Assembly (NCBI GenBank): GCA_921293015.1
Contig: OV121087.1
Span: forward strand, 38,426,630 to 38,490,629
Length of the DNA: 64,000 bases
Origin: Phorcus lineatus
Lineage: Eukaryota; Mollusca; Gastropoda; Trochida; Trochidae
Direction of reading: 5' to 3'
Notes under the pieces: generated by a model
Databases searched by the model: none
Told to the model about the DNA's origin: nothing
The model's input: the letters and a program-made list of their open reading frames with translations, nothing else
Shown: positions 8,474-60,265 of the stretch, piece after piece
How the letters are laid out: every line of letters starts with the position of its first letter
Position numbering within the stretch: position 1 is the stretch's first letter
Position numbers and translations under genes: made by a program

Positions 8474-8707
8474 GTACTCCTCATCTCTATTTATATGAAA
8501 CTTCATTTTCATAAACGATCGTCCAATTCTGCCATGAGATCGAATGTTCGATTTTTGTACCGTTTTAAGTTATCGATTAATATCTTTTGCAAAACCCCTT
8601 GGTGATTACTTATACATAAAGGGATCACTATTGGTCTAATTTAACTCTTGCGATAGCGATAGTGTATTGCAACCCACTGTCGTGACAGCTATAGACATTT
8701 TTTAATT

Positions 8708-10785: not shown

Positions 10786-11760
10786 ATTGCCCATTTGGGG
10801 TCAAGGGGTCACCGAACCTACAATTCAGAATCCCCATTGTCCAAGGAGTCTACACACAACTATTAAGCTATCAAGACCTTTTGGAACTGGAGAAGAAGAT
10901 GAAAGTAGGATTTTAAGGTTTTGACCCCTGTGACCCCATTTGGGGTCAAGTGGTCACAAAACCTACAATTTAGAATTCCTGTTGGCCAAGGAGTCTACAC
11001 ACACCTTTTCAGCTCTCTAGACCTTTTGCAACTAGGGAAAAAGATGAAATTAGGTTTTTTAGGTTTTGACCCCTGTGACCCGATTTGGGGTCATGGGGTC
11101 ACCAAACCTACAATTTAGAATCCCCGTTGGCCAAGGAGTCTACACACACCTTTTCAGCTCTCTAGACCTTTTGCAACTAGGGAAAAAGATTAAATTAGGT
11201 TTTTTAGGTTTTGACCCCTGTGACCCCATTTGGGGTCATGGGGTCACCAAACCTACAATTTAGAATCCCCGTTGGCCAAGGAGTCTACACACACCTTTTC
11301 AGCTCTCTAGACCTTTTGGAACTGGAGAAGATGAAAATAGGTTTTTCAGGTTTTGACCCCTGTGACCCCATTTGGGGTCATGGGGTCACCAAACCTACAA
11401 TTTAGAATCTCCAGTGCCCAAGGAGTCTACACACAACTATTCAGCTCTCTGGACCTTTCGGAACTGGAGAAGAAGATGAAAATAGGTTTTTCATGTTTTG
11501 ACCCCTCTGACCTCATTTGGGGTCATGGGGTCACAAAATCTACAATTTAGAATCTCCAGTGCCCAAGGAGTCTACACACAACTTTTCAGCTCTCTGGACC
11601 TTTTGGAACTGGAGAAGAAGATTAAAATAGATTTTTAAGGTTTTGACCCTTGTGACCCCATTTGGGGTCATGGGGTCACGAAATCTACAATTTAGAATCC
11701 CCATTTGCCAAGGAGTATGCACATAAAATTTCAGCTCTCTAGAGTCATTGGTTCTGGAGA
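10786..11760 (+). repeat. Tandem repeat core, ~145-bp period, about 6.7 copies
   Basis: Each unit contains TTTTGACCCCTGTGACCCCA, then GGGGTCA, then CAAGGAGTCTACACACA and TTTTCAGCTCTCTAGACC. Unit starts near 10920, 11065, 11210, 11352, 11497 and 11642 are 142-145 bases apart. Short repetitive open frames in it come from the repeat and are not genes. Confidence 0.9.
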
Positions 11761-11842
11761 AGAAGTCGAAAAAGTGAAAAGTTTACGGATGGACGGACGG
11801 ACGGATGGACGGACGGACGCCGGACGCCTTGCCATGCCATAA

Positions 11843-17949: not shown

Positions 17950-18266
17950 CCACCACTGGACTCAATTCCTTATCGTGGTGTGGTGGTTTGCGTGCTTCAG
18001 AGACCCTGAGAGCTATGCCAGCTGGAGCTAACAGGCTCCTGGTAGGGGCACCCACGCTGGACAGGTCGACGGGTAGAAGCCAGACCAAATTTGAGTCCTT
18101 CTAAAACCTGCTTTCTATCTCTCACTATGCCTTTCTTTCCGTCTTTTCCCTCATACTGTCGATCCCTTTCTCCCTGATCTGTCCACTCTCTTTTGGATGC
18201 TTGACATCCACGTGTTTAATAACTGAGATATTGTTCAAAGCACGTTAAACCCCAACTCACTCACTC
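17950..18266 (+). repeat. Dispersed repeat A, fullest copy
   Basis: It runs from CCACCACTGGACTC to the tail CACGTTAAACCCCAACTCAC. It matches the copies at 1-262 (same strand) and 3691-4003 (opposite strand). Confidence 0.85.
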
Positions 18267-21200
18267 AATTCATTGGTTTGGGATCCAAAATTGATTATAA
18301 TGTGGCGATTCCTAGTAAATATAGTTCATTTCCAATTAATCATACACGTTACTTGAATTTAGTCAATTAATGACGAAACCCTGTTACAAAAAGCTACATG
18401 TATTGGCATAGCAAGATGCTTTGAATTTGAATGCTCTATGTACATGTACATAGACCCGGAGTTTCAGTTACAATTTAATTCGATAGTTCAAATCTGTAAA
18501 GGCGACCCAGTCAGTTAACCTTAAATTTGTTAAGTTTGTGTTAATCAATTACATGTATGTTACAGATTGAAATATATTAGATATTGACATTACCAGAGTA
18601 ATGATATACCTGATTCGAAATTGGCGTATATTTCTTCAGGTATAGGTACGTAAGTACTGAACAGAGCACAAAAACATGTAAACCCAAAATTATCAAATGT
18701 GAAAAGTTCACTAGGTTACTTTACTGAATGTATTATTTAATTTAACATAACAGACAGATGGGGCATGGGATATCTTTGTTCTTAAAAGAAGATGGCAAAA
18801 CGCAAGATAAGGTTAGAATGTCAACCAAAGAAAAAATAACTTAATGGTTGGGCTTCCGATATTGTACATATATGAGGTAAAGGTCAATAGAACTTTGCAA
18901 TAAATATTTAATTTCCATGAAGTCATCGACATTCTGTTCCAAATAGTGTCACTAACCTATGTTTTGTCATTCTTATTTTAATGAAATCCCTTTAAAAAAT
19001 TTAGAAATCTCATCATGATTCGGATAATGTATAGTACATGTTATGCTGTAAAATAGTTCATGTCGTGTTTTTATCATGATTAGAGGTTTAAAAATCCAAT
19101 TTGATATTCATTAGTCTAATCATGATGATAATAATGGATCTATATCCTGACAGGTTTTTTAAAATAAAACAAGAATATTTTTTCTCTCATATTAATCTAG
19201 ATGTTTTTGCCAAAGTGTATTGAATTATTTTTGTAATTGTTGTCAGAACTGTATATCCTAACTTTAAGATGAAGAAATAGTTATTTTGTGGCCTATCTAG
19301 TACTATTATTTAAGATTTCACAGCGCGTTCATGCTTTCGAGAATTTGGACTCTTTTGGAAGTGTTTCTTATATGTGAAAACACGGAAAATACTAATATTA
19401 GCTATGTAATACCGACGAGGTCAATCATATCAATGTGCATATCTTTCATACGATGCCCTCGGGCAAAATATCAATTTTATAGTGACGTCGCATCATAAAC
19501 AATGTTTTGAAGGCACTGTTCGCCTTTGACGTTGTTGCGTCCGGGTTGCGAGCCAATTTTTTATATTGTAGTCTATCAAGTGAATTGTACAACATAAGAT
19601 TACAAACCATTATTGCATTAAAAAAATCTGGCATTAACAAATTGTTTAAATCTCTAAACTAAGTCTGTAGAGATGGATTAAACTTCTACTTCCACTATTT
19701 ATACTACTAAATATGACTAATGTGTTTTCTTCCCCTAATTTACGCTCCTGCTACATCAGCGTAATTGGATCCGCTGATCGAGCTCCTTCCATATACCCTG
19801 ATCTCGTTCAAGCCAAAACCCTCGTATCGCTAGCTATCTAACCAGCCAATTGGCACAACCCGGGTGGAAAAATCCGTTGAGTTTAAGGTAGTAGCTTCAT
19901 GCGCCTTAATTAACATTTCATTGGCTGAAAATATTACAGGTGCGCATAGCGAGCTGTTAGAGGGTTTTGGTTTGAATGAGATCAGTGTATATGGAAGGAG
20001 CTCGACCAGCGGATTCAATTACGCTGATGTAGCAGGATGCTAGTCTACAGATTTACTTAATAAAGTAGGTCATATTATCACATCATTCATGTCCAAATAT
20101 GTTCACCTCATTTGAAGAAAACATTTTATGTGTTCATGCACCCACATGTTTTTATGGACATATACGGTATAACTTCCTTTCAATGAGAAAACATGCAGAT
20201 CTATAAAGGGTATCAGTTTACCTATACAAATCTATTAATAACATTATCTATAGTCATATATGACTTAGATAGTCAACATCTGTGCACTCTATCAGCGATT
20301 ATTAAACGTAAGAAATTCATTGAACTAAAATATACCTTTCAAAGGTTCATGATAAAGAACGTTGCGCCGAGATGGCAGATAAGAAAAGTCCCATCTAAGA
20401 GTTTTGTTATTATGCAAGCATTATTTTCCGGATATCCGATTGGTCGAGAGGTGATTACGTGAAAAGCTTATTTTCTTCACCCGAGTTCAACCAAACTTCA
20501 TGATAACTAATGGAAGACATGATGACAATGAAACTGTTGGTCCGTGACCAACTGTTATCGGCATGAACTTTGTCCGTCGTGTGGAACAATCGATCGTCCT
20601 TTTTTGTTATTTTCGTTAACTAAATATAGCGATTATGGGCTGATAAATTCGTTTAAAACCTGTTTTATAGACCCGTGAAAAACAATTTTGGAATTAACCA
20701 AGAACTATAGAATAAAAAATTTTAATTTTCAAAGTTCATATATCTGCAATTAAATATTAGTTATATTCATTTCCGGTAAAAAAAAAAGACAATGTATTTG
20801 ATCATGGTTAGGTTATGATATAAATTACGTTATTTTCATAACATACTTTTTAAATGAAAAATCAATTGAAAAACATTAATAGATTTTATCTGCGTGATAT
20901 TTGCACTTTGTTTGCAAATAATGCTACAAAAAAATTTTGTGCAGCTGTATAATACCAGCAATGCTACAAATCACTTTTAAAAAGATTTGAAATGTATTGA
21001 AAAACAAGTATCAAAAATTAACTTGATGTTTACAGCCAGTGACGTCTTGGTTAAATATTTTACTTTCATATACATTTTAAGACATTAAAATACCAAGTCA
21101 TAGATTTTTTGGGAATTTCTTCAAACAGGAAAAAGACGACTTTTAGAAGTATTCAAAACCGTTATCGAACTGATGGTAAATGATCTTAAAAATTTAAAAA

Positions 21201-21839: not shown

Positions 21840-22770
21840 GGCCGACAATTTTACGGAGATTATTTAAAACTACTTTTCAAAATGTATGTCTGTAAAATAT
21901 TTCATGGAGTTGGTCTGAGCGCCAAGGGCATTATTTAAACTACTCTGCGATATTTATGTTTCTAGTAGATGTAATTGAGTTGGTATGAGCGTCACAGGTA
22001 ATTCTTTAAAATATACTCTTCAGATTTTGTGTCTGTGAAAGATGTAATGACGGTGGTCTGAGCGTCAAGGTGATTGTCTTAAACTATGCTCTTCAGATTT
22101 TGTGTCTGCAAAAGATGTAATTTTTTATAATGAAGATTGTCTGTGCGTTAAGGAGATGGTCTAAAACTATACTCTCTGTAAAAGATTTGATGAAGGTTGT
22201 CTGAGCGTCAAGGAGATGGTATAAAACTAAACTCTTCAGTTTTTGTGTCTATCAAACAATTGATGAAGGTTGTCTGAGCAACAAGGAGATGGTATAAAAC
22301 TATGCTCTTCAGATTTTGTGTCTGTGAAAGATGTGATAAAGGTGGTCTGAGCGTCAATTAGATTGTCTAAAACTATACTCTTCAGTTTTTGTGTCTATTA
22401 CAGATGTGATAAAGGTGGTCTGAGCGTCAAGGATATGTGATAAAACTAAACTCTTCAGATTTTGTGTCTATTAAAGATGAGATGTAGGTGGTCTGAGCGT
22501 CAAGGAGATTGTCTAAAACTATGCCCTTCAGATTTTGTGTCTGTGAAAGATGTAATTTTTTATAATGAAGGTGATCTGTGTGTCAAGGAGATGGTCTAAA
22601 ACTAAACTCTCTGTAAAAGATTTGATGAAGGTTGTCTGAGCGTCAAGGAGATAGTCTAAAACTATACTCTTCAGTTTTTGTGTCTATTAAAGATGTGATG
22701 AAGATGGTCTGAGAGTCAAGGATATGTGATAAAACTATACTCTCTGTAAAAGATGTGATTAAGGTTGTTA
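21840..22770 (+). repeat. Degenerate tandem repeat, ~71-bp period, about 12 units
   Basis: The landmark GGTCTGAGCGTCAAGGAGAT recurs near 21912, 21983, 22052, 22137, 22198, 22269, 22344, 22418, 22489, 22567, 22636 and 22706, alternating with CTCTTCAGATTTTGTGTCTG. Spacing is 61-85 bases. It sits between candidate exons 2 and 3 of the PAN-domain gene. Confidence 0.9.
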
Positions 22771-24212: not shown

Positions 24213-24868
24213 TAGTCGTGCATGGTCATCATGGTAGCAGAGCGTAAGGCTACTTTCTGAAGAACTTTTCAAGACGTGTATCTCAGATTATTGAATACGC
24301 ACCATGTTTAAGGGGATTCGCTAGTACATCTCCCTTACGAAAACCAATTTTAAACCATGTTTAATAAAAATTGTCAAAATTTATCAAAGAAGATTTGTTT
24401 AGTTTTTCATCTTAAAAAACACATAATCTAATTTTGTATATATGTACATTTAAACATATCATCTAACTCACCTTATCGTTATTTATGTCTTTTATGTGAA
24501 CAACGAGAAAGAGAATTCTATTCTGTTCTGTTCTGCTGGCTGGTGCTAAATGACCATTCGTCGTACGCGTTAGAGAATTACTCCTTCTTATTAACCCGTC
24601 GTTGGCCGTTTTACTGACCGATCACTAAGGGACGCTTAAGGGTCACATATAAATTTTAAGGCAGTCTTAAAGAGCTTTAATACAAAGCCGCTCAAACGAA
24701 TCTTGGGGCTAAGTGCTCTCGGTAATGCTTTGCGGTAAATATTGCAAAATTTCCCCAAAGATCCTCGATATTTTGGGTCGTTCACAAAGAGGTGATAAAG
24801 GTCTCACTTAACAATGTGTACCATGAAGTTACGTAAATTATTTCTTTTCTTTTTGTTTGCTTTTCTAG

Positions 24869-25459
24869 GACATGAGCTCCAACAGTCATTAAAGACAACG
24901 ATGCTAGAGATCAAGACTTCCTTTACTGAAGTTTTCACCAGTGCCAAGGTCGAAGCAGTGCGTATTGACGTCCTGTCAACAGTTACAACATTTCAAACCG
25001 ATTCAACGTTTTCTTCTTCTACGGTAACTCATCCATTAATGTCCACAATCGTTGAAGATTATACCAATATGACTGTGCTATCAGCGACCAAATTCGCCCT
25101 GTCAAACAAACTTATCAAACTTAATGAGAACAAAACCGAAGATAAGGTGTCTTTCTCACGAAAAAATATTTCGTCTTACAAGGCTAAGAACCATTCGTCC
25201 ACGGAATTTACATCCCACGTCGAACCAACAGATATTCTAATTGCGCCCTCCTACGTTGAAACTGTTTTATCAAGCGAACGTATTGATGCCAGCCATTTTG
25301 TCAAAACAACTGAAGAAACGACCACAACTACGTCGACAATTTCAACCCCTGTTACAACTACGCCATTCGGACTTTCGTCAACTAGTACCAAAAAAAATTG
25401 TAAAGAGTATGACTATCGCCGGAAGAGGATGAAAAATTATCAGCGCTATAAATATCATG
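24869..25459 (+). CDS. PAN-domain protein, candidate exon 3 (Ser/Thr-rich linker)
   Basis: A long pyrimidine tract ending TTTTCTAG precedes 24869, and donor GTAGGT follows 25459. The 591-bp exon is phase 1-1 and encodes 197 residues, starting with a codon completed to Gly, then HELQQS. It is rich in Ser and Thr, with a TTETTTTT-like run near residues 165-180, several NxS/T sites and a basic end (YRRKRMKNYQRYKYH). This resembles an O-glycosylated mucin-like stalk between extracellular domains. Alternatively it starts a separate gene at ATG 24814 or 24823, because the upstream reading (MKLRKLFLFFLFAFLG) would pass for a signal peptide. I prefer the splice reading because the hydrophobic codons are exactly the pyrimidine tract and both ends are in phase 1. 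Confidence 0.5.
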
Positions 25460-25914
25460 GTAGGTTTCACGAGGAGGTTGGTGTGTTTCATAGACACCAA
25501 ATAGACCCATTTGCTAGGTAGCTCAACAGGCCTAATAAGCACCAGATCAAGTTAGATACATCCCCATATGGTAAGGAATAACAATACCATTGCAGATCTC
25601 TCGGCCTTTTCAATTCAAAACCCATAATGGTATCTCTATGAACATTGGTCCATGGAATAATCATCATTTAAAATGAAGCTCATGAAAGTTATTTTTATCA
25701 ATGGCTTGAATTGCTTATGGTAGATTACAACTAAAATATAAGTAATAAGGGGTTGTCAAAGAATACAACTTCATAACTATTGTTCAATATACTTCCCATT
25801 TTTTGCCAGTTGGCGGGGATAAGGCCTTCTTATGTAGAATATGTTAGTGCGGGATTTGTTATGTCCATTTTGAGGCCAAGGAATCACCAAATCTCCAATT
25901 CATAAGCCTTCAAA

Positions 25915-28985: not shown

Positions 28986-29135
28986 GAACCTTGACCTCCC
29001 TGCTACGGGTTCAATCATAACAGATTTAAATACATGGTAGCGTTTATTTTGCCAGTGAGTGTTTGTGAGTGTGTGTGTGGTAAGGCATGTTTGGCAAAAT
29101 ATAATGCAATGTCATGTTATTTTTTCTATTCACAG

Positions 29136-29392
29136 GATGTTCCAAGTATGGTGACGGGTTTATGCTGCAGTCATATTTCTATTGCATAAGCGGGCACAAC
29201 GACGCATCCTTTGAGAGCGATGACCCGGCGGAGTGTATGAAACGTTGTATAGAAACCACAAGTTTTGTGTGTAGGAGTTTTGATTTTTGGGCTGGAAAAT
29301 GTTGGTTGTCGAAAGATACCCGCTCGGATGTCAGAAACGCATGGGCGCCGTATTGTGGTTGTATTTACTATCAAAGAAACTGCGATGGTTAG
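29136..29392 (+). CDS. PAN-domain protein, candidate exon 5 (PAN/Apple domain)
   Basis: The acceptor TTCACAG precedes 29136, and the phase-1 entry completes a Gly codon before CSKYGDG. The ~84-residue peptide is a good PAN/Apple module: ECMKRC, then FVCRSFDFW, then KCWLS, then YYQRNC, the order of Cys and aromatic residues seen in plasminogen/HGF-type N domains. Two endings are possible. Either the protein stops at TAG 29390-29392 after Asp-Gly, with AATAAA at 29733 as poly(A) signal, or a GTTAGT donor at 29388 ends the exon in phase 1 and further exons follow. The five joined exons would give about 454 residues. Confidence 0.65.
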
Positions 29393-31012: not shown

Positions 31013-32038
31013 TTACAAACTCTTGACTTCTCCCCTGACAGCGTGTCGCCACATATTAAACGCACTCATTACACATTCGTTTTCCTCATTAAGCATGAAT
31101 ATCAAGTTTTGTAAAATGGGTGAGATATCCGACTTGAAATGAGTCCGTCTGCATAAAAACATTCTTTTAGAAATGTCTACTAGCTTTGTCCGAGCTTTCA
31201 TTGCAAGAATACCTGTCACAAACACGTCGTCAAAATTCAAGTACCGCACATCACGTGACACAGGATAAACCTTTCTGAACACTTCCGGTGTGGTGATATA
31301 GGCGAAACCAATGCAATATTCTGGGAATATGTTAAAAGGGTACATTTCAACGGGAATGTAATACTTCTCTGACGGTTTCCTACAAGGAACTTCTTTGTCT
31401 AGCACCATGCAATGGAACCTTGTACCAATGGTATTTGAAGTTATATATGATATGAGGTTGAACAGATGGACGAAAACATCATCGTCGACTTTCACAATCA
31501 CTCGTACATGTGGGCAGTAGTTGATCACCCAGTGCATCAGCATCACATGCTTATGAGTCATGTTGACATAACTATCGATAAAATTACCCTGAATAATGTC
31601 CCCGTGTTCTTCTGATTCTAAATCTACCTGTCTTTGCACTTCATCGTCCAGGATACTAGCAAGTATGAAGACAGTAGATATACTGATATTTGAGATTCGG
31701 TTCACGCTTCCAAAGGTTTCACGAATTGTTTTGCGTTTTAGGAAATATTTTGGACGAGAGTGTACAGCGATTAAGACCGTCAACGACTTGTTTTCACATG
31801 TTTTACTGCTGTGTTTATATTCATAATTATGCAAATTAAAGAATGGGTCTCTTTTGATATGAAAAAACTCTGAAATAGAGTTTGATATATTTTGGTTAGA
31901 ATTTCTGTCATCGTGTAGATGGACAAGCGTTGCTATGAGATAGCAAATCGTCACTGTGATTACCACAACGGTTCCGGCTATTCCTCTCCCGTTTCTCCGC
32001 AGCTTCCAAAGACTATTTTTTATGATTATGAAAATCAT
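31013..32038 (-). CDS. Beta-1,3-galactosyltransferase-like glycosyltransferase (GT31)
   Basis: This intact 341-residue type II membrane protein would act in the Golgi, transferring a sugar from a UDP-sugar in beta-1,3 linkage. A short basic cytoplasmic tail (residues 1-17) precedes a transmembrane anchor (~18-40), then a stem and catalytic domain. GT31 motifs: AVHSRPKYFLKRKTIRETFG (91-110), GDIIQGNFIDSYVNMTHKH (~146-164), the metal-binding DDD at 185-187 in VKVDDDVFV, FPEYCIGFAYI (238-248) and DDVFVTGI (270-277), where families usually have EDV. There are four NxS/T sites (50, 83, 117, 159). I chose ATG 32038 because a likely acceptor AG (32075-32074) lies just upstream, so the ORF extending back to 32152 would be intronic; an upstream 5'UTR exon is expected. 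The acceptor sugar cannot be told from sequence. Confidence 0.85.
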   Translation of the reverse strand: MIFIIIKNSLWKLRRNGRGIAGTVVVITVTICYLIATLVHLHDDRNSNQNISNSISEFFHIKRDPFFNLHNYEYKHSSKTCENKSLTVLIAVHSRPKYFLKRKTIRETFGSVNRISNISISTVFILASILDDEVQRQVDLESEEHGDIIQGNFIDSYVNMTHKHVMLMHWVINYCPHVRVIVKVDDDVFVHLFNLISYITSNTIGTRFHCMVLDKEVPCRKPSEKYYIPVEMYPFNIFPEYCIGFAYITTPEVFRKVYPVSRDVRYLNFDDVFVTGILAMKARTKLVDISKRMFLCRRTHFKSDISPILQNLIFMLNEENECVMSAFNMWRHAVRGEVKSL

Positions 32039-32586
32039 ATCCCCTTTTCGTGGTCCGTCAATGATCAGGGTACCTATATAAAAATATATATGTAAGTCAA
32101 AGCATTTACATTTACACACATTACATGAACAACCAAAGTTAAAAAAACACAAACCTTACCTTCGTATCTTATCTTATCAAAAAGGGGTCGTTGCACAAAG
32201 CAACTTAACACAAAGGTTAGCCTTAGTGCCATTCTGAAACAATTTAACTAAGCATGTATTTCGATTTGACAATTTTTTTGCTTCAAAGCGGCGTATACAT
32301 TTTGGTATCAACGAAGATACGCCTCTATCAGATGGAGTATAACTGGACCTGAAAAGTAAGATTGGAGCTATATACAGAACATTGTACATTTCAAAAACAT
32401 GACAAATGTTCATATAAATAGTTATATCGGAAAATACCACGACAGTTTCCCTAAGAGACCTCCTCCCCAAACACCCATAACTATTTGTATACCTCACTGA
32501 TTTGTCAAAACCCTTTTCAATTAAGTTCTAATCCCTTTGAAACACTCTGCTGTGTATGAGAGGATTCAGAAAGGCAAGACGATCCC

Positions 32587-45750: not shown

Positions 45751-48372
45751 CTATATGGTCAATGACTTAATCAACTCGAATACTAAGATGATCCAGATTG
45801 GTCAATTACACAGATAATGACCAACCAAATAGGGCAAGTGTATGCAACTATGGCGTTAAGCGATTATTTATAAGGGGGAACATGAATAAAAATTATGAAC
45901 AATTCATCATTTTTTTAAATTTACGATAAATTTCGTAATGACACATATAGATTAAGGTTCCATTAGCCGATGATTTCTCCGAGAAAAAGATTTTATTCTG
46001 TACAATGTAAAACGTTTTGTTTGGTTTTCTTTAAATTGGAATTTGTTTTGTTTTAATGGGCTTATTATTTTAAGTAAATTGATTCATACGGTAACTGAAT
46101 GATGATAAAAAATTTCGTCTCATACTTGAAAATAGCTTCCGATAGTTTCCAATTATTAGTTTTATCTGCTTGTTCTATTGAAAATATTGTAAGGTAGTTT
46201 CAAACCAATTAACCTTTGTCTATTTCAATTCATCATAGGTTAAATCCGTGACGTTCACAATTGAGAAAGCTAAAACTTTTATGAATATCAGATAAATAAT
46301 TACTTAGTAGATACTGAGTGCATTGATAAGGACAATGATTTATCCCATTCGCCTGGTATTTTAACATTGATAATATCAGGATATAGGTCTGAGTCGCTCT
46401 AGACACGATTCTTTTATAAGAAACGTCAATTTTAACAAAACTATCAGTGAAAATATCTTTGATTTAGCTTTCTATATCAATGACTTCACGATGTTTATTT
46501 AAACTCCAATAAGCTGACTGGTCTGGTGTAGCGTTAAACCGGAATAGCAAAACGTTTATAAAAGGGACAAAACATTTGAATTTTTCTTAAATTTCTGCTG
46601 CAAATAAAATTCATCAGGAATCCAATGATTTCAAAACCTTTGACCAGTTGAAAAAATACATACGGTATGGGTATATTTACCGTTTTATTAATTTTTAAAT
46701 TCCCTACTATGAAATTACTACTTATTACAAAACTTGTGTTTATGTGAGAGAGTTCATGTTACAATTTGGCCATGGAAAAGGATAGGTTCGGAGAAAGATA
46801 TTCTGCAAAGAGCATAAAACAAAATATCCTGATCTTTAAATCAAACAATATCATGTAGAATTGGACTTTAAAATTATTTCTACTGAAATTGACAAAGACG
46901 TGTTTGCACAATCACCGTCGTATCACCACAAATAATTTTCTTCATTTACAGACCTAAAAGGACAGAACCGTGCATCTTCTGAACTACAATAATGTTCACC
47001 ACTAATAGTGCTGATAATGATATTTAGAAATAAATGACAATGAAATAAGCTCACCCATATGTTTACTTAACGTTTGTCTTAAATGACATCGTGAATAAAC
47101 AGAACATATAAGTAATTACGGATAACAACAAAATATGATTATGTCATCAAATTTTAATGATAATATTGGGAAAATAGGAAACTATGACATTTTATATTTG
47201 TAGTTATGAACATGATAAGCCTGAATATGCCTTTAATTGTTTTTGCTATATTTCCATTTAAGTATTTCTACATTTAGTTTTTTGTAAATATTCGTAAAAT
47301 GTTTTGTTAAAATACCAGTAGCGTACATGCAAACTGTTATTGTAGTGTACGAGTGGTTGCATCAAGCATGCGTTTTTCGTTTATCTGTTTTCACTTCACT
47401 TTTTTGTCTTTAGATATATATAACATAGACTTAATAAAGAGAAAGTTACCATTTTAACGGTAGATCCTGTAATTCAAAATGGAACGTTCATCATGTAATA
47501 AAGCTAAAAAAAAAACAAAACATGTTTTTAAACTGTTCGTAATTTTTGTCAGCTCATGTATGTTAGTTTGTTTTTCGATTCAATGAAATGATTCAGTTAC
47601 TTTAATTTGTAAAACAATGACAAAACGAATTATCATAAATATCACGAGCCACGAATTGTATTTGTGCCCAAGCCGGTTGAAAAACGTTGTCAATCAGAGG
47701 AGTTAAAGCAAAAAGAGATTTAAAAGTTTTAGTTGAAATACCGATCTGTAGAACAATAGTTCTTGACTAAATGACTAGCTTATCTCCAAAAATCACATCG
47801 TCAACTCAAGCAGTTACCCGATACAATATGATTTCACAAAAATAAAATATCACTGGCCATTAATTTTACTTATGAAATCATATCAAACCTTATATCTCGA
47901 AACAATCTCATACCAAAATGTATCCGAGGCAATTTTCATGTAATCACTGATCTCACATCGGGAGACTTCCAACACACATGCCCTGCTGTTTTCATGCTTG
48001 CCAAAATTTTACCTGTTTCCTGTGCTTTCATACATGGGAACAAAAGATTTACCGGCGCTAATTAACTGACTGTAATTTCCATATCCGGAAATGGATTTTC
48101 GAATATAACCAAGTTATATGCCCACCATCTGAATTTGCAGAGACAAGAAGGCAAATTTAATCGTAAAGTTTAAACCACCCTATCATAAAGAATCAGCATG
48201 ATAGGAAATAGGTAAGATGACCCCTCATGACTGTGTTCGAAAATTGACACTCATCTCAACTCATGCATAACAATAAATTTAAAGAGGCCATTGGCGAATG
48301 ACCAAGCAACAGAAAGTGCCGTGCAATCATAATTCTAGTCTCGTAAAATTTAATGGCGACTTCTGGCTACTT

Positions 48373-48406
48373 TATAAGGCCGGACGAGGCCTGTCATCGT
48401 CAGACT
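48373..48406 (+). promoter_or_regulatory. Core promoter of structural-protein paralog 1
   Basis: TATAAG at 48373-48378 is followed 22-28 bases later by an initiator-like TCAGACT (48400-48406), which fits TATA-dependent initiation. The predicted 5' leader is about 48 bases before ATG 48450. The leader resembles that of paralog 2: both have CCAGACA followed by TTGTGGGAG just before the start. The start site is inferred. Confidence 0.65.
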
Positions 48407-48449
48407 CAGATCTTACCTCCAGACAGGACAAGCTTGTGGGAGCTACAAG

Positions 48450-51001
48450 ATGAAGGTGAGAAACAAACACGTATAGCTATTCTTTTGTTTATTCATTTAC
48501 CTATATAACCAAATTATCATTCAACACAATTAGTTAAAGTTACAAAGTACACTTCACTTGCTAGTCTTAAGCTTAAGTAACATTGATATATTTTTGAAAA
48601 CTCTATTTGTTAAAGAACATGTCTTTCCTTTTTCGGGTCGAGATGCATGTGATGTTGTTGGGTTGGAGTTAAACGTCTTGTTTCACCATTGGGTGATGTC
48701 GCCGACGTAGATGCATGTAAGATTCGAACCCGCACTTTAAGTGTCAGAAAACATCGCCAGAACCGGCCTTAACAACACCTTATCACTTTCAGCCAACTGT
48801 TTTTAAGAATTTTTTGTGTCTTTCAGTGTCTGTCAATCCTCGTTGCTGTTGTCTCCGTCGCTGCCGTTTTCGGTGGTTTTCCCAATTCCTACGGACAAGT
48901 CGGTCATCTAGGCCATGCCCAGTCTGGACTCAACAACTATGCCCATGGTCAGTATGGTGAATCCAACGGCAACAGGAAATACAATCGTTACGACAACGCT
49001 GCCAAAGTTTACAACAATGCTGCAGTAAGAAATGCAGCTCATGGTAACAACTACTACAAAGCTGCCGATGGTGTCGCCGCCAATGGAGCTGCTTCTGCCA
49101 AACACTACGGACAACAAGCTGCATCTCACGGCAACTACGGACATGCCAATGCTGCTCATGCCAACACTCTTGGCTACAATGATGCTGCTGCTCAGCAATA
49201 TGGAAGACGCGACAATGCTGCCCGTGCTCACGCATCCAACAACCATGCTAACAGCAATTACTACAGGAAAGGTGATGTCTTCGATAAAAATATAAGATAC
49301 GGATATGACAAAAAATACCACAAGAGTGCAAATGATAATGGCGACTACGAAATCATCGATAATACCAACGAACACAACCTCGATGACTACCGTGACCACA
49401 GCGCTGCCGCAAACCACGCCGATGCCGCTCACGCTAACAACAAATATGCTTCCAATGCTGCCCATGCTCTCAGAGACAGTAAATACGGTCACGCTGCTGC
49501 CCAGGCTCACCGTGACAACGGTAAATACGGAGCTGCCGCCAGTCATGCTGCCCACCAAGGAGCTGCCAATCACGCAAATGCTGCTAAACTTAACGTTGCT
49601 GCCGGTAACAATAGGTATTACGACGACGCCCATGACGCTGCTAGGAGCAAATATGACAGCTACGCAGCTAGAAATGCTGCTAGCAAAAGGAACAGTGTTG
49701 CAGATGCTCTCAATCGTCTTGGACACACTGGCGCAGCCCGTGGCTCCGGATATGGAGGTCATCTCGGTGTCGGACACGGAAACGCTTACGGACTTAACAG
49801 GTTTGGACATGGCAACGGATACGGACATGGCAACGGATACGGAAATGGCTACGGACAAGGAAATGGTTACGGACACGGAAATGGCTATGGACACGGACAC
49901 AACAACGGCTATGGATCTCAGTTTGGTCAAGGATACGGTCAATATGGACATGGTGCTGCTGCCCAAGCAAAACACGCCAATTACCTCGCTGCTGCAGCTG
50001 ATGCTGCCAATGCCAAGGCTGGTCATTACGGTTCTCACCTCAACGACCTCCACAGAAACAAGGGTTCCGCTGCCTACCATAAGAACGGCTACAACAGCGC
50101 TCACGGCGCTGACCACTACAGTTCAGGGGCTGCCGCTAACCAGAAAAATGCCTTCCACGCTGATAACGCTGCTGCTGCCGCTAACAAACACGGATTCGCC
50201 CACAATGGAGCTGATGCTGCCAGCCGATATGGAGCAAATGCTGCCGCAGCTAACAATGCCAACACTGCCTTTGCTCGTGACAACGCCAAGCGCAACTACC
50301 ACGATGCTGCCAGAAAACACCACCTCGTCAAGAAGTACCACCACCACTCTGACGTTGGTGGCAACAACTACGAACGTCTCAACTACGACAACAAGAACTA
50401 CAACGATCATTTCGGTCAGAATGCCAACGCTGCTCACTCCAACGCCAACAAAGCCGCCCAGAACTACTACAAAAACGCCGCCGCTGCTGCCCACCACAAC
50501 GGTCACCGTGCTGCTGCCAACCAAGCTGCCCAAGCATACAACAATCACAACGCTGGCCATATCAACACTGGATCTGCTGCTGGTAAATCCAACTACTACG
50601 GCAGAAATGCTGCTCATGCTTCTGGTGCTAACGCCGCTGCTGCACGTTCCAACTACGCTAACCACAACAACGCTGCTGCTGCCCAAGGTCACGGTTTGAA
50701 CAGCTACGCCCGTCATCTGTACGGTTCAAACGCCCAGGCTCTCAACAACCACCACGGTCACGCAACTAACCAGGCTGTCGCTGCTTCTCACCAATCTCCC
50801 ATCTATTACGGAGGAGTTGCAGGTCATGGAGGAGTTGCTGGAAACGGTTACTATGGACACGGAGGAGTTGCTGGAAACGGTTACTATGGACACGGAGGAG
50901 TTGCTGGTAACGGTTACTATGGTCATGGAGTTGGTGGTAGAGGTTACTACGGACCCGGTCATGCCGCTGGATACGGTGGTGTTCGAGGTGGCTACTATTA
51001 A
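48450..51001 (+). CDS. Secreted Ala/Asn/Gly/His/Tyr-rich structural protein, paralog 1 (two exons)
   Basis: Coding exon 1 is only ATG AAG (48450-48455), followed by donor GTGAG. Exon 2 runs 48827-51001 after acceptor TTTCAG and stays open in phase 0 for 725 codons to TAA, giving 726 residues. Residues 1-18 (MKCLSILVAVVSVAAVFG) form a signal peptide. Residues ~19-308 and ~380-660 are Ala/Asn/His/Tyr-rich with repeated NAA and AAA blocks. Residues ~309-380 carry GNGYGHG-type repeats, and ~662-726 carry GVAGNGYYGHG-type repeats ending in GGYY. After residue 3 there is no Met, Cys or Trp, so disulphides cannot form; Tyr and His could support cross-linking or metal binding (inference). Codons favour C- or T-ending forms, which suggests high expression. 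A paralog lies 8 kb downstream on the same strand. I do not recognise the family. Suckerin-, shematrin- or periostracum-like roles are analogies from composition only. The gene model is very likely; the function is open. Confidence 0.9.
48650..48745 (-). repeat. SINE fragment in intron 1 of paralog 1
   Basis: Read on the minus strand it carries a tRNA-type B box (GGTTCGAATC at about 48723-48732) and a tail resembling GTTTAACTCCAACCCAAC. This is the tail style of the other SINEs here. I saw no equivalent in the intron of paralog 2. Confidence 0.5.
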
Positions 51002-51292
51002 AACGGTTGATATTTGTTGCTTGGGTAAAGGATATTTGTACAAAATAGCATTCTTATTTTTATACAATTTGATACAAAAATCTTATCTCTTCTTTTCGTC
51101 CATCGTTTCTGTAAATATTACACTGAATATGAGAGGCATGATTCAGCTACTGTCAACTGTTACTCTCAAAAATAGTGTCCTTTAATTGAAATATTCTAAT
51201 AATTTCGAATCGAAAACTGTAGGAGAAATCACTTCCGTTTCACATCAATGTCTTGTTGCTACGATTATTGTTGAAGAGTCTCTTTTCCACAA

Positions 51293-51298
51293 AATAAA
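51293..51298 (+). terminator. Poly(A) signal of paralog 1
   Basis: AATAAA lies about 290 bases after the stop codon, and T-rich sequence follows. It is the first canonical signal downstream of the gene that I see. Confidence 0.65.
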
Positions 51299-54200
51299 GC
51301 ATATGTGTTTCTACAAATTTGTTTTCTTTTCATTTGCTATATAGTGATCTTCTCAACGACCAAAACACATCACAGAGTGCTCACAGGGGAAATCCTCTGA
51401 CATTGCTAAGCAAAATATTCGGATTATTTATCATATGACACGAATAGATATGCAGAACAACGCTTGTGCTGTAAAATGATTTCATGGTAAATAAGAAAGA
51501 ACCACGTTTCTCAATACATGGTTATGAAGTAGATCAATATTCTAAATTAAGGTATCACAACTCATAGATGTTTTGCTTATATCAGTAGAGTCATTTTCCT
51601 ATACGTGCAATAGTACCACCGATATATATATAACAACATCAAAATGTGTACATTTAACAACAAAACATACATTCAAATATTTAATCGTTAATTAACCTTA
51701 ACTGTCTTATGAAGAAAATTTTTAACAGTGCAAAAAAAGATCAATTTTGAACGATTGCTCCAAGCAGCATCAAAATAACAACTGCCTCTTGCAAACATCA
51801 TACATACCACCGAACTAATTTTGCAAAGAAATATTTCAATAAAGAATCTCATAGTGATAAGTATATATTCTTTTTCATACTTTGACCTAAACTTGACCTA
51901 TACTTTGACCTTAGTTACATACGTGTACACATGTGACCCCGTGGTTATAGCACTTTTCAGCTTGTTATATTCAACGAAATTCTTGGGTAATGCATATGAA
52001 ATTTTCAATGAGTACATATTCTGATAACTGTACAAGATGGAAGTTGGGAAACGAACTTCAAAGGATTTATTACATTCATCATTATGATATATCTAAAATG
52101 GCTTTAAATGAAAACTTCTAGGTAACGAAACAGATGGAAAACAGTCTTGAACTTCAAAGATTTGTTTTCTTTTCAATTATTCATATAGATCTGTTTGTTA
52201 TTCTTGTTTTTATATTTAGAGGATGATGTAATACAGTCAATGGGTTTTTGAAAGAGCCAAATATTTCACATCTGAAGCATTACATAACAGAATTATTGAT
52301 CATGTTTGACAGTTAGTTATAAGACCTCATCATGGTGGAATGATGACTTAGAGTTCTGAAAGTCCTTGAAATATACGACACTCATATACATGTACATACA
52401 CCAAAAGAAAAAAAGGTATAGAAAACATGACATATTTGGTCAAATCAACATTTCTGCCTTTTCATCTGGATAAAATCATTTTGAGGTAATCAAGCCATAT
52501 ACAAATGAATCAAAGAACCAATCCATTTTAACAACCATTTCCCCGTAGTAATAAAGAAATTGAAGGTTTCGCGTTTCTTTTTGCGCTCACTATAAATTCC
52601 GGCAGATGTGTAGATTTTGAAAGTTATAGAAGTTTGCATCTACGTAAGTATCACTTTTATTTATCAGGAATAAGAGGGAAAGTACCAAGCCAAACAGAGA
52701 TCTTTGCGAATCTTGTAATGATCCTAGAAGCATTTTTTGGATTCTTAAATGGGAAGTAGCATGTTTTTTGAAAATTATATGTATATTTGTTTCAAATGTT
52801 CCAAAATAAACGCTAGTTTTTACAAAATGTATAATCCATCGAGGATCAAACATATCATTAGTCAACCCGATCATCCGTAATCGTGGAAGAAATTATCAGA
52901 AACCAAGCAAAAACTGTTGACAGCCAATTTTGTATGAATACCTTTTGATAATTTCAGGTAGGAAAATGGATTCCAATACCTTAACTGAACATGGTTCTAC
53001 GTTTAGAAATTTTTCTTTTGAATAAAATATACTGTCTTGCAGTTGGTAACATTTATTTTTCGTTTTCATTAGATCACTTTATATCTCTAAAAAACACGTG
53101 TTAGAAACCCTTTGAGAAGCTTGACTTACTGAAGGAATTAATTTTGACTTACGAGAGTATAGTGTTGTAAGCGTCATATGAGATATAAACGTGTTTATTT
53201 CACCTTTTAAACAATTAACGTTTGGGGAGAGTTTGGACAAACTTTTTAAAGAATGAGTAAATACAGGATTTATTGTCATTTCAAATCACTTTTATAACAA
53301 GTTGAAAGATATGTATTACCTTCATCACAGTTTATAATTCACTATCCCTTAAGAAGTTGGTCTGTGAAAACCTCGATAGATTTTACGGTTGCTTCTTTCA
53401 AATTTTGACGCCTGTTACAGGTTTACCAGAATCACAATTTACATGTAAGTAAAATCGTATTACAAAATGGCCCGTATTACACAGGAACGGGTTAGATATA
53501 TTTCTATAGTTTTTATTCAGCTTTCCATTTTTTAATTCCAGCGTTTTATGAAACTCAATTGCCTTTTTCTTATAAAACATTAATAAAAATCGTAATTATT
53601 TCAAGAAAACATTCGCCTTTCGAAATTAACAAATTAAGATGAACATCTTACAAATTAGAAACTGCAGCTACCTTAGTTCTCCAGGACTTAAGGTTAAGTG
53701 AGAGCAACTAGATAAATGTTTTAGATTTGAATTAACAGACACATTCTCAAATATTAATGCAGGTGTTTAAATGTCAAAATGCTAAAACCGATAGTGACAT
53801 ATGCCAGTCTGTAATCAAAATAAACGAATACTTTTAAAAGACGCGTCAAACTACAATCATTGAAAGCAATCAACATTAACTTGCGTCTGAAGATACACAA
53901 TAGAACAGAAAAAGTCAGGTATTTTTTTAAGTACAGCATTTTCCAATGTATAAAAGGTCTTCTAAAATGGATTCTGTGTGCAAAAGCATCATGATCTCTT
54001 TTAATCGAGATTCAAGATTTTGACTTCAGGATATCACATAGCCTATCATCAGCTTGTCTCGGCAACCTTGTCAAGATCACGTTTTATTAGGATGTTCAGG
54101 TTCAAAATATCTCCTGTGTGTTCCAAAAACACGCACATTATCTTACATGTATGGTAACCGATGGTTTTCTAAAGCTGGTCCAATACTGTGGAAAGCCTTT

Positions 54201-56341
54201 CCGGAAAACATCATGAGCATTCAGAAACTAAACGAATTCAAGTCTAGTTTGAAAACACACTTTTTCAAATTGGCATACAACTGAAACTTTCAATAGAGAA
54301 CAAGTTCTATGGATTTACAACTTCATATAACATTAGTATTAATGCCCTGAACGGAATTAGGCGTTAAATAGAGGATTAAATTGGTTGATTGGTTGGTTGA
54401 TGGATTGATTAGAGTTCATTTTTAATCTTATAATCCTATTATGTACAGTGCAAATAATACCTAAGAATTGACTCGTTCCGCACTTTCAATCAACATTTCT
54501 CTCTTTATGTAATTGCTTGACGACTGACTGATAAAAAAGGCCTTCGCTTTCACTTCAACATTGTTTTTTGTTGATATTTTTCTCTCAATCTGCTGATTTG
54601 ATTCTACTTCATCATTTCAATCAATGTCCGCGTGATCCGGAAGAGCACAGCTGTTAAATTTAACGTTCCTTCGGACTATTTCACATATTTTTCCTTTAGC
54701 TTTTAGCTGTATTTCTCATCCTATAGGATCTATTTGTATCGATAGCGATCACTCAGATAAGCATCAATGAAGTATTAATATTGTTTATCTGAGAAAAACT
54801 TCTAATCCCCACGTATAGCTGGCCGTCCGGTGATAAACTAACCACTAGTCCTCTCGGATATCGCGCAGTAAAATGCACGTGCAGAGGCGGCTCGGGAATT
54901 CCCTTCATTTTCAACCGAGTTCATAACGAAATAGTGATATTATTTTCCAACCAAATGCAAACATGCTTTGGAAACATATTTATTGAGGGCTGTTAACATA
55001 GCCCTTTTGAAAAAAATTAAAAGTCGACGAATCAATGTATTTTGGTCTTCTTTATAATGATAATGATATGAAATAATTATGTAAATATATGTAACGTTAT
55101 GTAAATAGTTATAAAACACCCGCCCAATTCCCCTGGCACGGTAGGCGTATTTCCCGTCAAGCGTCGGTGGTTTTCGCCATTTACTGATGCTCTTAAAAAA
55201 TTACTGATCCTTCAATGTCCACATGCAGGGTTGTAAAATCTATTTTGTGGATGAGTACTCTTATCCTAGCTATTAACGAGTTTACATAACATTGGAACGC
55301 ATCAGAAATGAGGATGTGTGGTAATTGTCTAATAAATGGATCTCTCGTCTCGACCTTCATGACAACTTCAAAGTCATATAAAATTATTATATGAAAACAT
55401 TTTTTGAAATAGGTAAAGGGTCGGTCCTATCGGGGTATTTTTTATTGGAAAGTGAAGTTCGAGGAAACACTTTTGCTTTACATGTATGTAATTTATAATT
55501 AATGATAACAAAATCTGGTTGAATTTTCTTAAATTTTCCTAATTTTTCTCTTAATTGTACTCCATGTTATATTTCTGGAAATGACATACTGATTAAATCG
55601 TTGTAATGCTTAACAATTTAACAGAAAAATTAAACAATCATTGGAAAGTAAAAAAAAACAAATTAAGAGTGAAGCTATTCATACTTCTTAGTTTTTAAGG
55701 TTACTAAAGTGATGTCATGAAAATAAAGTTAAACGATTGCAAGACAATATTTCTAATTAAAAACAAAACAGTTAAAAAACGAACGTTCCAAGCTCAGTTA
55801 AGCTGAATCTATTTCTATTTCTATTTAAGAATCTATTTCTCTAGCTCAAATGATGAAATGTTTACAACATCATATTTTTGTTATTGAATATAGAATATAT
55901 AATAATAAATATAAGAAAAGCACATTTAAATTGTGCTACTTATTAATTGTAAACTTGAGGCTATACCATCAGGACACTTATTATAGTACTGCTAAGTTTG
56001 AAATTAGTTACATTACTAACTGTATGGTGGGGTTTTGTTTGATTGAAAATTTAATTTTGAAGGAGCACAAGTTCTTTTATTTATGGTGTATTTTCTAAAT
56101 TTTTGCTTTACAACCAGCTTTGCAAATTCAGCATTCATTATCAATGTGTTTAAACTTATTGACAAATGACGAAGGGGAGTCCTTGAATATCCCATCACGA
56201 TGCTACAGAAAGTTCACGCCATTGTGGACAAGCTTATAATTAGCATATTTAAAGAGGGAGGGCTCTTACAGACCGCTAAATTAAGCTGATATATTATCCT
56301 AATCAAGTTACTGTAAACTTTTTACGAGAAATTTTCCTGTG
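51299..56341. other. Spacer between the two structural-protein paralogs
   Basis: The 5-kb spacer holds the LINE relic at 54.0-54.4 kb and nothing else I can support. I looked for a third or partial gene copy and for duplicated flanks and saw none. Confidence 0.5.
54040..54415 (+). pseudogene. LINE C-terminal relic with (GATT)n tail
   Basis: The frame at 54054-54284 ends RWFSKAGPILWKAFPENI, then LNEFKSSLKTHFFKLAYN and a stop, the typical C-terminus of many invertebrate LINE ORF2 proteins. A tail of TTGGTTGATTGG-type repeats follows. It is truncated at the 5' side. Confidence 0.8.
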
Positions 56342-56377
56342 TATAAATACGTGGACATAAGAAGACAAAATCACACT
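56342..56377 (+). promoter_or_regulatory. Core promoter of structural-protein paralog 2
   Basis: TATAAAT at 56342-56348 precedes an initiator-like TCACACT (56371-56377) by a normal TATA-to-start distance. The predicted leader is about 48 bases before ATG 56421, the same length as in paralog 1, and shares CCAGACA and TTGTGGGAG with it. Confidence 0.7.
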
Positions 56378-56420
56378 CCGGCTCCATCTCCAGACAAGAA
56401 CACATTGTGGGAGAATCAAC

Positions 56421-59017
56421 ATGAAGGTAAGATAAATTGGCAAATGTACTCTTTATATTTAATAAGCTTAAGATGTTTGGAAAAGATGTTTTTTGGATTC
56501 TCTTTTTTGCTGTCCTTACATTGAATTGTCGATACATCGATTTGTGTTTTATAAAATAGGCCAGCACCTCGTTTCACAATGCATTCTTACTCATGTTATC
56601 CATTCTTTAAAATTGCACTTACAATCTCCTTAAGGTTTACGAAAGTCAGCGAGAGTTAAAATATCTTTTGAGGGCATTAAGACGGGATTTTTTCAAGAAT
56701 TCTTATTCTCTCAGCGGAATAGATATTTAAATTAACTTTCTAAAATCTTTTAAAAAAAGAGTAAATCAATGTAATCAAATCCTGCTTATCTTTTCTCTTT
56801 CAGTGTCTGTCCGTCCTCGTTGCTGTTGTCTCCGTCGCTGCCGTTTTCGGTGGTTTTCCCAACTCCTACGGACAAGTCGGTCATCTAGGCCACGCCCAGT
56901 CTGGACTCAACAACTACGCCCATGGTCAGTATGGTGAATCCAACGGCAACAGGAAATACAATCGTTACGACAACGCTGCCAAAGCGTACAACAACGTTGC
57001 CGCTGGAAACGCCGCTCACGCAAACAACTACTACAAAGCCGCCGATGGTGCCGCTGCAAACGGAGCTGCTGCTGCCAAACACTACGGACAACAAGCTGCA
57101 TCTCACGGCAACTACGGACATGCCAATGCTGCTCATGCTAACACTCTTGGCTACAATGATGCTGCTGCTCAGCAATATGGAAGACACGACAATGCTGCTA
57201 ATGCTCACGCAGCAAACAACCATGCTAACAGCAATTACTACAGAAAGGGTGATGTTTTTGATAATAATGTAAGATATGGATATGACAAAAAATACCACAA
57301 GGTTGCTAATGACGCTGGCGATTACGAAATCCTTGACTCAGACAACGAACACCACCTCGACGACTACCGTGACCACAGTGCTGCTGCAAAACACGCCGAT
57401 GCTGCCCACGCTAACAACAAATATGCTTCCAACGCTGCCCATGCTCTCAGAAATAGCAAATATGGCCATGCTGCCGCCCAGGCTCACCATGATAACGGTA
57501 AATACGGAGCTGCTGCCAATCATGCTGCACACCAAGGTGCCGCCAACCACGCTAATGATGCTAACCTTAACGTTGCTGCCGGTAACAATAAATATTACGA
57601 CAACGCTTATGATGCTGCCAGAAGTAAATATGATAGCTATGCTGCCAAAAACGCTGCCCTCAACAGAAAAAGTATTGCTGATAATCTTGCTTATCTTGGT
57701 CACAATAATGCCGGTCATGGTTCTGGGTATGGAGCTGGTCTCAGTGCGGGACATGGAAACTATGGACATAACGGTTATGGCAACGGATACGGCAACTATG
57801 GACACGGCAATGGCTATGGACATGGCTACGGACGCGGAAATGGTTACGGACACGGAAATGGTTACGGACACGGAAATGGCTATGGACACGGACACAACAA
57901 CGGCTACGGATCTCATTATGGTCAAGGATACGGTCAATATGGACATGGTGCCGCTGCCCAAGCAAACCGCGCTAACTACCTCGCCGCTGCTGCCAATGCT
58001 GCCAATGCCAAGGCTGGTCATTACGGTTCTCACCTCAACGACCTCCACAGAAACAAGGGTTCTGCTGCCTACCACAAGAACGGCCACAATAGCGCTCACG
58101 GCGCTGACCACTATAGTTCAGGGGCTGCAGCTAACCAGAAAAATGCTTACCACGCTGATAACGCTGCTGCTGCCGCTAACAAACACGGATTCGCCCACAA
58201 TGGAGCCAATGCTGCAAGCCGATATGGAGCCAGTGCTGCCGCAGCTAACAACGCCAACACTGCCTTTGCTCGTGACAACGCCAAGCGCAACTACCACGAT
58301 GCTGCCAGAAAACACCACCTCGTCAAGAAGTACCACCACCACTCTGACGTTGGTGGCAACAACTACGAACGTCTCAACTACGACAACAAGAACTACAACG
58401 ATCATTTCGGTCAGAACGCCAACGCTGCACACTACAACGCCAACAAAGCCGCCCAGAACTACTACAAGAACGCTGCTAATGCTGCCCACCACAACGGTCA
58501 CCGTGCTGCTGCCAACCAAGCTGCCCAAGCATACAACAATCGCATCGCTGGACATGTCAACACTGGCTCTTCTGCTGGTAAATCCAACCACTACGGCAGG
58601 AATGCTGCTCATGCTGCTGGTGCCAACGCCGCTGTTGCTCATTCCAACTACGCTAACCACAACAACGCTGCTGCTACCAAAGGTCACGGCTTGAACGACT
58701 ACGCCCGTCATCTGTACGGTTCAAACGCCCAGGCTCTCAACAACCACCACGGTCACGCAACTAACCAGGCTGTCGCTGCTTCTCACCAATCTCCTATCTA
58801 TTACGGAGCTGCTGGTCATGGCAACGGTTATTACGGACACGGAGGAGTTGCTGGTCATGGCAATGGTTATTATGGACATGGAGGACTTGCTGGTAACGGT
58901 TACTATGGACATGGAGTTGCTGGTAACGGTTACTACGGTCACGGAGTAGCTGGTAGAGGTTATTACGGTCCCGGTTACGCCACTGGATATGGTGGAGTTA
59001 GAGGTGGCTACTACTAA
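56421..59017 (+). CDS. Secreted Ala/Asn/Gly/His/Tyr-rich structural protein, paralog 2 (two exons)
   Basis: The architecture is the same as in the upstream paralog. ATG AAG lies at 56421-56426 with donor GTAAG. Exon 2 is 56804-59017 after acceptor TTTCAG, open in phase 0 to TAA, giving 739 residues. The signal peptide differs by one residue (MKCLSVLVAVVSVAAVFG). The order of regions is kept: an Ala/Asn/His/Tyr-rich domain, a longer central Gly/Tyr/Asn/His-rich tract (~307-383), a second Ala/Asn domain with the conserved stretch KKYHHHSDVGGNNY, and a C-terminal tract of GHGNGYYGHG-type repeats (~670-739) ending GGYY. It too lacks Met, Cys and Trp after residue 3. Length differences from paralog 1 lie mainly in the two Gly-rich tracts, as expected from repeat slippage. 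Coding sequences are nearly identical over long runs while introns and promoters have diverged. That fits a tandem duplication with purifying selection, gene conversion, or both. Confidence 0.9.
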
Positions 59018-59269
59018 AATGTTCTCTTCAGGATTAACATGTTTTTTGTGCAAAGAATATTCTTATTTTTATACGAATTGATACAATATGACGTATAGCG
59101 TTGAGCGTATAATTTTCAGATAAATCCAAATCAAGTTTTTCAAAGAAATGATGTATCCTTAGATAAAATGTCCAAAATATTGTAGCTCTTCAAAAGACAA
59201 AGGGTAAATCATAAAAATTTCAACGAAACAGCATATGGCTTGTAACTTTGAAATGTCTGCCTTTGTACA

Positions 59270-59275
59270 AATAAA
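59270..59275 (+). terminator. Poly(A) signal of paralog 2
   Basis: AATAAA lies about 250 bases after the stop codon and is followed by a TG/T-rich stretch (TGTCTCTTTGC), typical of a cleavage region. Confidence 0.65.
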
Positions 59276-60265
59276 ATATATCTTTCCAAATGTCTCTTTG
59301 CTCATTGTCATTTTGTCATTACACTATTTTATTCCCAAAAGTTTTAATTAGATAATTTCATATATATATTAATTAACCTAATTGGCATAACTCACCATGA
59401 CCTGAAGGAAACCTACAGTGAATGGAGATAAACCACTCGTTTGGTAATTGTAAACTCACTGCGTAGTGAAGTTATTAAACCGTTGTAAAGATTGTTAGGA
59501 TATCAGAGAACCCCAATACAGCTTAAAAGTCCTGCACTTATTGATTTGAGAACATTAACTACATCGAAGTTAGAATATTTGATATTTTGATATGATACAA
59601 TTGGTATTATACTTTTAGAATAAGATCATATGACTAATATAGTCGTAATTTACGAACCTGGACATAACTGCATGGTCCCAAATTTGATATTTTAATACTT
59701 CCGAACATTAAACCTGGTGGCCGGATGTTTCAGTTGATGGACCTTTCAATTCAATCGGTCCCCTGGGCTGAATATAGTACTCTGAACGTTTTTATTTTTC
59801 AGGAAATTTGGAAGTCATGAAAACCAGACTTAAATGAATTTAAGATAGCAAATGACTCGAATGTTGTTTAGAAGAGCGTGTTTAAAAAATACAGTGCAAC
59901 GAAAACTGCTTCAAAGTATAGTGAAAAGTTAATTTTATGTCGTTAAATCAAATGCATCTTCAAAGATCAATGTCAGTTTCTTCTCTTCTCATGATCAATG
60001 AGTAACAACATACTTATGACCTGTTTTCTTAACTGAAGATCAAAAGAAAGTTGTCACTTTCAAAATTAAAAATTCCGATAAACTAATCACGTGAATGTAA
60101 ACATTGTATATCTAGAGTCGACTTGTTACCTTTTGTATTCTTAACTTGACATGAATACATATTCACAGATTAATTAGAAGAATGCGAACAACTGCTTATT
60201 GTCTCAAGGCATATGGTACAAATGTGATTTCACTTCAAATAACAATGTTAGTTACTACTTCATAG

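Follow-up and report, generated by a model that had tools for sequence, protein, structure and literature searches.

A window of 64,000 nucleotides from the genome of the marine snail Phorcus lineatus contains two tandem duplicates of one gene, here called A and B, which are both intact on the plus strand and encode proteins of 726 and 739 amino acids. Together with a 725-aa protein of the vent snail Gigantopelta aegis (P0027 in our searches), they form an undescribed family of a known kind, the low-complexity secreted structural proteins of molluscs. Tentatively, and at a little short of even chances, we read A and B as a pair of gastropod scleroproteins that are secreted, free of disulphides and N-glycans, very basic, and probably disordered. 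They would be bulk products of a gland or epithelium that condense through His and aromatic residues and then harden in a tough, mainly organic part. The gene structure, composition, homology, codon bias, and absence of glycosylation sites are observations, and the secretion, disorder, condensation, hardening, and tissue in this reading are inferences.

The earlier note on this DNA had claimed two complete genes of these lengths on the span 48372..59280. Both are complete, each with a six-base coding start, a single GT-AG intron, and a long second exon (Table 1), and the span corresponds to the TATA-like box of gene A through the AATAAA of gene B. A TATA-like box and a poly(A) signal flank the two genes alike. 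The leaders, first codons, and splice donors of A and B are alignable (local alignment score of 52; maximum of 37 in 1,000 shuffles), as are their 3' ends (71; maximum of 58 in 1,000 shuffles), while the introns gave no alignment (37; maximum of 54 in 500 shuffles). Judged from sequence alone, the predicted splice is supported, since leader and donor are alike where the introns are not. We found no third copy within the window (tblastn, E up to 1).

Table 1. Features of the two genes (positions in the window; residue numbers refer to protein A)
Feature	Position	Strand	Remarks
TATA-like box, gene A	48373..48378	+	TATAAG, pattern match only
Gene A 5' leader, first coding bases, and splice donor	48400..48461	+	Resembles gene B 56371-56432
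Gene A coding part of exon 1 (Met-Lys)	48450..48455	+	ATGAAG, six coding bases
Gene A intron	48456-48826	+	371 bp, GT-AG, GTGAGA...TTTCAG
Gene A exon 2	48827..51001	+	Residues 3-726 and TAA stop
Conserved core 1 of A (residues 145-195)	49253..49405	+	GDVFDKN..YGYDKKYHK.AND.G.Y.I.D...H.LDDYRDH; 29/51 aligned residues identical in P0027
Degenerate KY(G/D)xxAA unit region of A (residues 205-296)	49433..49708	+	43/92 aligned residues identical in P0027
Gly/His/Tyr block of A, GHGNGY units (residues 299-385)	49715..49975	+	18-bp tandem repeat 49805-49897
Conserved core 2 of A (residues 486-535)	50276..50425	+	KR.YHD.A..H.L.KK.HH.S..GGNNYERL.Y...YND.FG; 29/50 aligned residues identical in P0027
C-terminal GVAGNGYYGHG repeats of A (residues 664-726)	50810..50998	+	33-bp tandem repeat 50828-50930
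Gene A poly(A) signal	51293..51298	+	AATAAA
TATA-like box, gene B	56342..56347	+	Pattern match only
Gene B coding part of exon 1 (Met-Lys)	56421..56426	+	ATGAAG
Gene B intron	56427-56803	+	377 bp, GT-AG, GTAAGA...TTTCAG
Gene B exon 2	56804..59017	+	Residues 3-739 and TAA stop
Conserved core 1 of B	57230..57382	+	Alignment with A and P0027
Conserved core 2 of B	58271..58420	+	Overlaps the 54-codon identical stretch of A and B (A residues 480-533)
Gene B poly(A) signal	59270..59275	+	AATAAA

Repeat-rich sequence such as this could in principle be low-complexity satellite DNA that is open by chance, a reading whose probability we consider close to nil. Between A and B, 6.2, 6.5, and 18.9% of first, second, and third codon positions differ, so that the rate at third positions is roughly three times that at either of the others, and the same residue is encoded in 644 of the 725 aligned codons. 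The estimates of dN and dS were 0.062 and 0.325 by NG86 and 0.082 and 0.173 by YN00. In a random-sequence model with the base composition of the window, the chance of a 724-codon open frame is about 1e-23. The third-position bias, the likeness of leader, donor, and 3' end next to unlike introns, and the existence of a distant protein homologue all speak against a satellite, and for the same reasons we take A and B to be genes.

Codon usage suggests that both genes resemble highly expressed ones. Where two codons offer a choice between C and T, the share ending in C was 0.67 in A and 0.65 in B, compared with 0.42 (the galactosyltransferase-like ORF described below), 0.35, and 0.32 in other ORFs of the window, which are small stop-to-stop frames (112, 55, and 31 codons), and 0.32 in the intergenic background. 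A and B differ at 195 of 725 codons, 114 of them synonymously. The synonymous differences are patchy (their variance was reached in 2 of 5,000 shuffles), and the longest identical run spans 54 codons (0 of 5,000 shuffles). This pattern fits gene conversion keeping the copies alike, and purifying selection could have added to the 54-codon run.

Elsewhere in the window, a single-exon beta-1,3-galactosyltransferase-like ORF lies at 31013-32155 on the minus strand (PF01762, E = 1.1e-39); its top match comes from Haliotis asinina, at 46% identity across 84%. Two plus-strand ORFs with PAN_1 domains (8156-8605 and 29105-29392; E = 2.2e-7 and 5.2e-7) are probably exons of secreted or receptor genes. 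A Thr/Ser-rich ORF with a signal-like start (24799-25521, plus strand) had only sub-threshold matches, including one to a glue-protein model (E = 0.012). The window also holds a tandem array of a 145-bp unit (10790-11772; 6.8 copies, 90% matches), two adjoining arrays of a 73-bp unit (21967-22553), and three dispersed copies of one sequence (2-262, 3691-4002, and 17950-18269), which are 87 to 92% alike, one being inverted relative to the other two, and are probably a mobile element.

The translated products are dominated by Ala (22.0% in A and 22.1% in B), Gly (15.0 and 15.3%), Asn (13.8 and 14.6%), Tyr (9.4 and 10.4%), and His (9.2 and 10.0%). Met occurs at residue 1 only, Cys at residue 3 only, and Trp nowhere, in agreement with the earlier note, which had stated that none of the three follows residue 3. 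Its account of proteins rich in His and Tyr that can form no disulphides and alternate between two kinds of block also holds for both. The N-terminus, MKCLSILVAVVSVAAVFG, looks signal-like by eye, and the proteins are predicted to be secreted. The mature proteins are basic (pI 9.3 to 10.2). For mature A, the calculated net charge is +89 at pH 5 and +23 at pH 8, most of the drop being due to His.

Within the parts of A and B that are rich in Ala and Asn, the residues enriched before Tyr are Lys and Ser; Gly and Asp are enriched after it, and Ala at about +4 to +8. By raw counts, a Tyr-to-Tyr spacing of 14 residues occurs seven times in each protein; this spacing was not seen in P0027, where Lys or Ser before Tyr is kept. 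We do not claim an internal duplication relating core 1 to core 2. Shuffles of A, B, and P0027 reach the observed scores: the likeness of the cores was reached by 270 of 2,000 shuffles in A, by 23 of 2,000 in B, and by 68 of 2,000 for the three proteins jointly, and the two halves compared with 20-residue block shuffles gave z values of 1.2 (A) and 1.7 (B). An AlphaFold model built on the alignment of three sequences had a mean pLDDT of 31, with long low-confidence helices in the Ala-rich parts. This value fits disorder, which we consider probable, and would equally fit too shallow an alignment; the model itself is uninformative.

Database searches assigned A and B to no described family. Neither had any Pfam match at E up to 1, and none of the three proteins matched NCBIfam, a library built for prokaryotes. 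P0027 alone matched Pfam PMG (E = 2.1e-5; 25.1 bits, below the curated cut-off of 29) and GLTT (E = 0.0025; 18 bits, below the cut-off of 21), in both cases within its C-terminal repeats. With exon 2 of A, a search of the PDB at E up to 1 returned three sequences, namely, a designed protein (E = 0.58) and a pair of S10 ribosomal proteins from trypanosomatids (3.4e-4 and 0.37), and a profile search returned one, S10 at 0.004. These matches lie in or adjoin the GHGNGY block, and we took them as low-complexity similarity. A search with full-length protein A scored 7,993 candidates, none at E = 0.001, a failure that we attribute to low-complexity proteins filling the candidates. The database includes at least some proteins of Haliotis, Patella, and Mytilus; with the full-length search swamped in this way, missing matches in these genera are weak evidence. 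No description of the protein was found in the literature searched, which included few subscription journals.

The relative in G. aegis was found with a rearranged query that placed the three stretches of A with the least repetition first (289 candidates and 1 match at E up to 10; E = 2.3e-17). It is the one relative of A and B that these searches found. The earlier note could place the pair in no known family, which holds as regards Pfam but needs amending, since a homologue exists. A and B align with P0027 end to end at 39% identity in a multiple alignment, and BLASTP within the three-sequence comparison gave 35% identity over A 1-708 (E = 3e-67). The Smith-Waterman score of A against P0027 was 1,017, with a score of 364 for the reversed sequence and a mean of 392 (standard deviation, 23; maximum, 473; n = 200) for block-10 shuffles. 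A score so far above shuffles that keep the local composition indicates homology rather than shared composition. The proteins are similar in length, share the two cores, and are all free of Cys, Met, and Trp after the signal-like start; in P0027, the only Cys is residue 10, inside the likely signal peptide, the only Met is residue 1, and there is no Trp.

P0027 carries the database label "filaggrin-2-like," which looks automatic to us. Vertebrate filaggrin-2 is a low-complexity protein rich in His, Ser, and Gly, and members of the filaggrin family combine an N-terminal S100 domain with filaggrin repeats. Apart from the label, the likeness to A, B, and P0027 lies in low complexity. S100 or filaggrin Pfam matches, which would mark members of that family, were found in none of the three proteins at E up to 1. 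The paper on the G. aegis genome (PMC7895826) does not use the word "filaggrin" in its main text.

Of 642 aligned residues, 253 are identical between A and P0027. Core 1, core 2, and the Tyr/Ala unit region exceed the remainder, which, counted after residue 20, has 152 of 449 identical. The two Gly-rich repeat blocks change fastest in kind. The GHGNGY block is mostly missing from P0027 (53 of the 87 residues at A 299-385 stand opposite gaps), and the C-terminal GVAGNGYYGHG repeats are replaced by a GFASRGVAPN type with Phe and Arg; P0027 has more Arg and Phe and less Tyr than A and B. After residue 20, 31 of the 63 aligned Tyr residues of A are kept as Tyr and 13 stand opposite Phe. Of 62 aligned His residues, 23 are kept, and His often stands opposite Arg, Asn, or Ala.

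All three proteins lack N-x-S/T sequons even though the mature forms of A, B, and P0027 contain 100, 108, and 75 Asn residues and 40, 36, and 57 Ser plus Thr. Composition predicts 5.4 to 6.0 sequons (shuffle means, 4.9 to 6.0), and none occurred in 6 to 17 of 5,000 shuffles, depending on protein and block size. Of the 16 Asn-Ser/Thr spacings between -8 and +8, the sole empty one is +2; the mirror spacing of -2 is also low (2, 1, and 3), and the effect may come partly from a local sequence pattern. The absence was spotted among 15 motifs viewed together and should be discounted accordingly. A and B are mutually dependent, but the absences in A and P0027 are largely independent, because these two share no more than 25 Asn and 8 Ser/Thr positions. 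The pattern suggests that the proteins pass through the secretory pathway and have been selected to carry no N-glycans.

These features bear on what the proteins might be for. An adhesive or mucus protein of the foot or hypobranchial glands, with wet cohesion of Tyr-, Lys-, and His-rich chains, seems to us quite unlikely. High Tyr, His, and Gly together with basic charge recall wet adhesives, but the absence of N-glycosylation sites and the 40 Ser/Thr of mature A would make a poor carrier of mucin-type glycans, and the 13 Tyr residues opposite Phe argue against DOPA as the central chemistry. Less probable still is a metal-binding or antimicrobial secretion, rich in His, that forms no material. 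It would account for the 67 (A) and 74 (B) His residues, the five and seven His-His pairs, and the basic charge; His is nevertheless conserved no better than the average residue, and a repetitive protein of about 700 residues with the codon usage of high expression fits a material better.

The most serious competitor, though still an unlikely one, is a role in the framework of the calcified shell, for a protein that the mantle edge would secrete as a hydrophilic, silk-like gel hosting mineral growth. Many shell proteins of molluscs are confined to particular lineages and low in complexity. Novel genes are also slightly commoner in the biomineralizing tissues of the scaly-foot snail (PMC7142155). 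Against a shell role, without excluding it, stand the basic character of the mature proteins, the scarcity of acidic residues (Asp and Glu together number 35 in A), and the lack of any Pfam domain in A and B.

Under the scleroprotein reading, each protein would consist of blocks rich in Ala, Asn, and His that carry a degenerate Tyr-Gly/Asp-x-x-Ala-Ala unit, a pair of conserved cores of the Lys-Lys/Tyr/Asp type, and blocks of Gly/aromatic repeats that change quickly. A gland or epithelium would synthesize them in bulk and store them at acidic pH as a soluble poly-cation. As His lost its charge after release, aromatic and His contacts would draw the chains into a condensate, which would then harden. 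Candidate destinations are tough and mainly organic: the operculum, the periostracum, and the radula or jaw.

The model for such a mechanism comes from squid beak proteins, whose Gly/His/Tyr repeats condense through a His switch and Tyr clustering, as reported in PMC6884462; by analogy, A and B could do the same. HBP-1 and HBP-2 are likewise His rich, with Gly/His/Tyr repeats and clustered genes (PMC6884462 and PMC9068888). We set the HBPs apart from A and B by description and by GHGxY count. Their tandem GHGxY pentapeptides are absent here (none in A, a single one in B, and none in P0027), and HBP-2 as tested has 175 residues (PMC6884462), far from the length of A or B. According to PMC9068888, HBP genes occur in three decapodiforms and not in octopus. 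Given the absence of tandem GHGxY repeats, A and B may work like the beak proteins without belonging to them. Suckerins, the proteins of squid sucker ring teeth, alternate Ala/His-rich with Gly/Tyr-rich blocks. Compared by description only, A and B share this alternation but are Asn rich and have two nonrepetitive cores.

The G. aegis homologue limits how far this mechanism can be generalized. The earlier note had proposed cross-linking other than by disulphides, or metal coordination. Disulphides are indeed impossible, but the part of the idea that rests on Tyr is weakened as a conserved principle, because Tyr often stands opposite Phe in P0027; Phe can form neither dityrosine nor DOPA. Aromatic contacts are better supported as the common principle, since rings are kept more than Tyr itself. 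Those His/Tyr repeats of A that come closest to condensing peptides belong to its least conserved segments relative to P0027. With GHGNGY mostly missing there and C-terminal His/Tyr replaced by Arg/Phe, condensation may not be the common function of the family. A broader claim is one we regard as rather doubtful: that a scleroprotein family old enough to be common to this snail and the vent snail (subclass Neomphalina; H. asinina belongs to Vetigastropoda) independently reached a material comparable to squid beak protein, free of disulphides, switched by His, and condensing through aromatic residues, and that selection has kept N-glycans off although Asn makes up one in every seven to ten residues.

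In our judgement, the proteins of organic hard parts and secretions in gastropods are poorly known at the gene level. What is gained here is a defined family with conserved cores, a vent-snail relative, and a sequence rule (Asn rich yet sequon free, with no Cys). If A and B are truly hard-part proteins, they would represent a further route by which molluscs make tough materials free of disulphides, and could serve as a template for biomaterials switched by pH.
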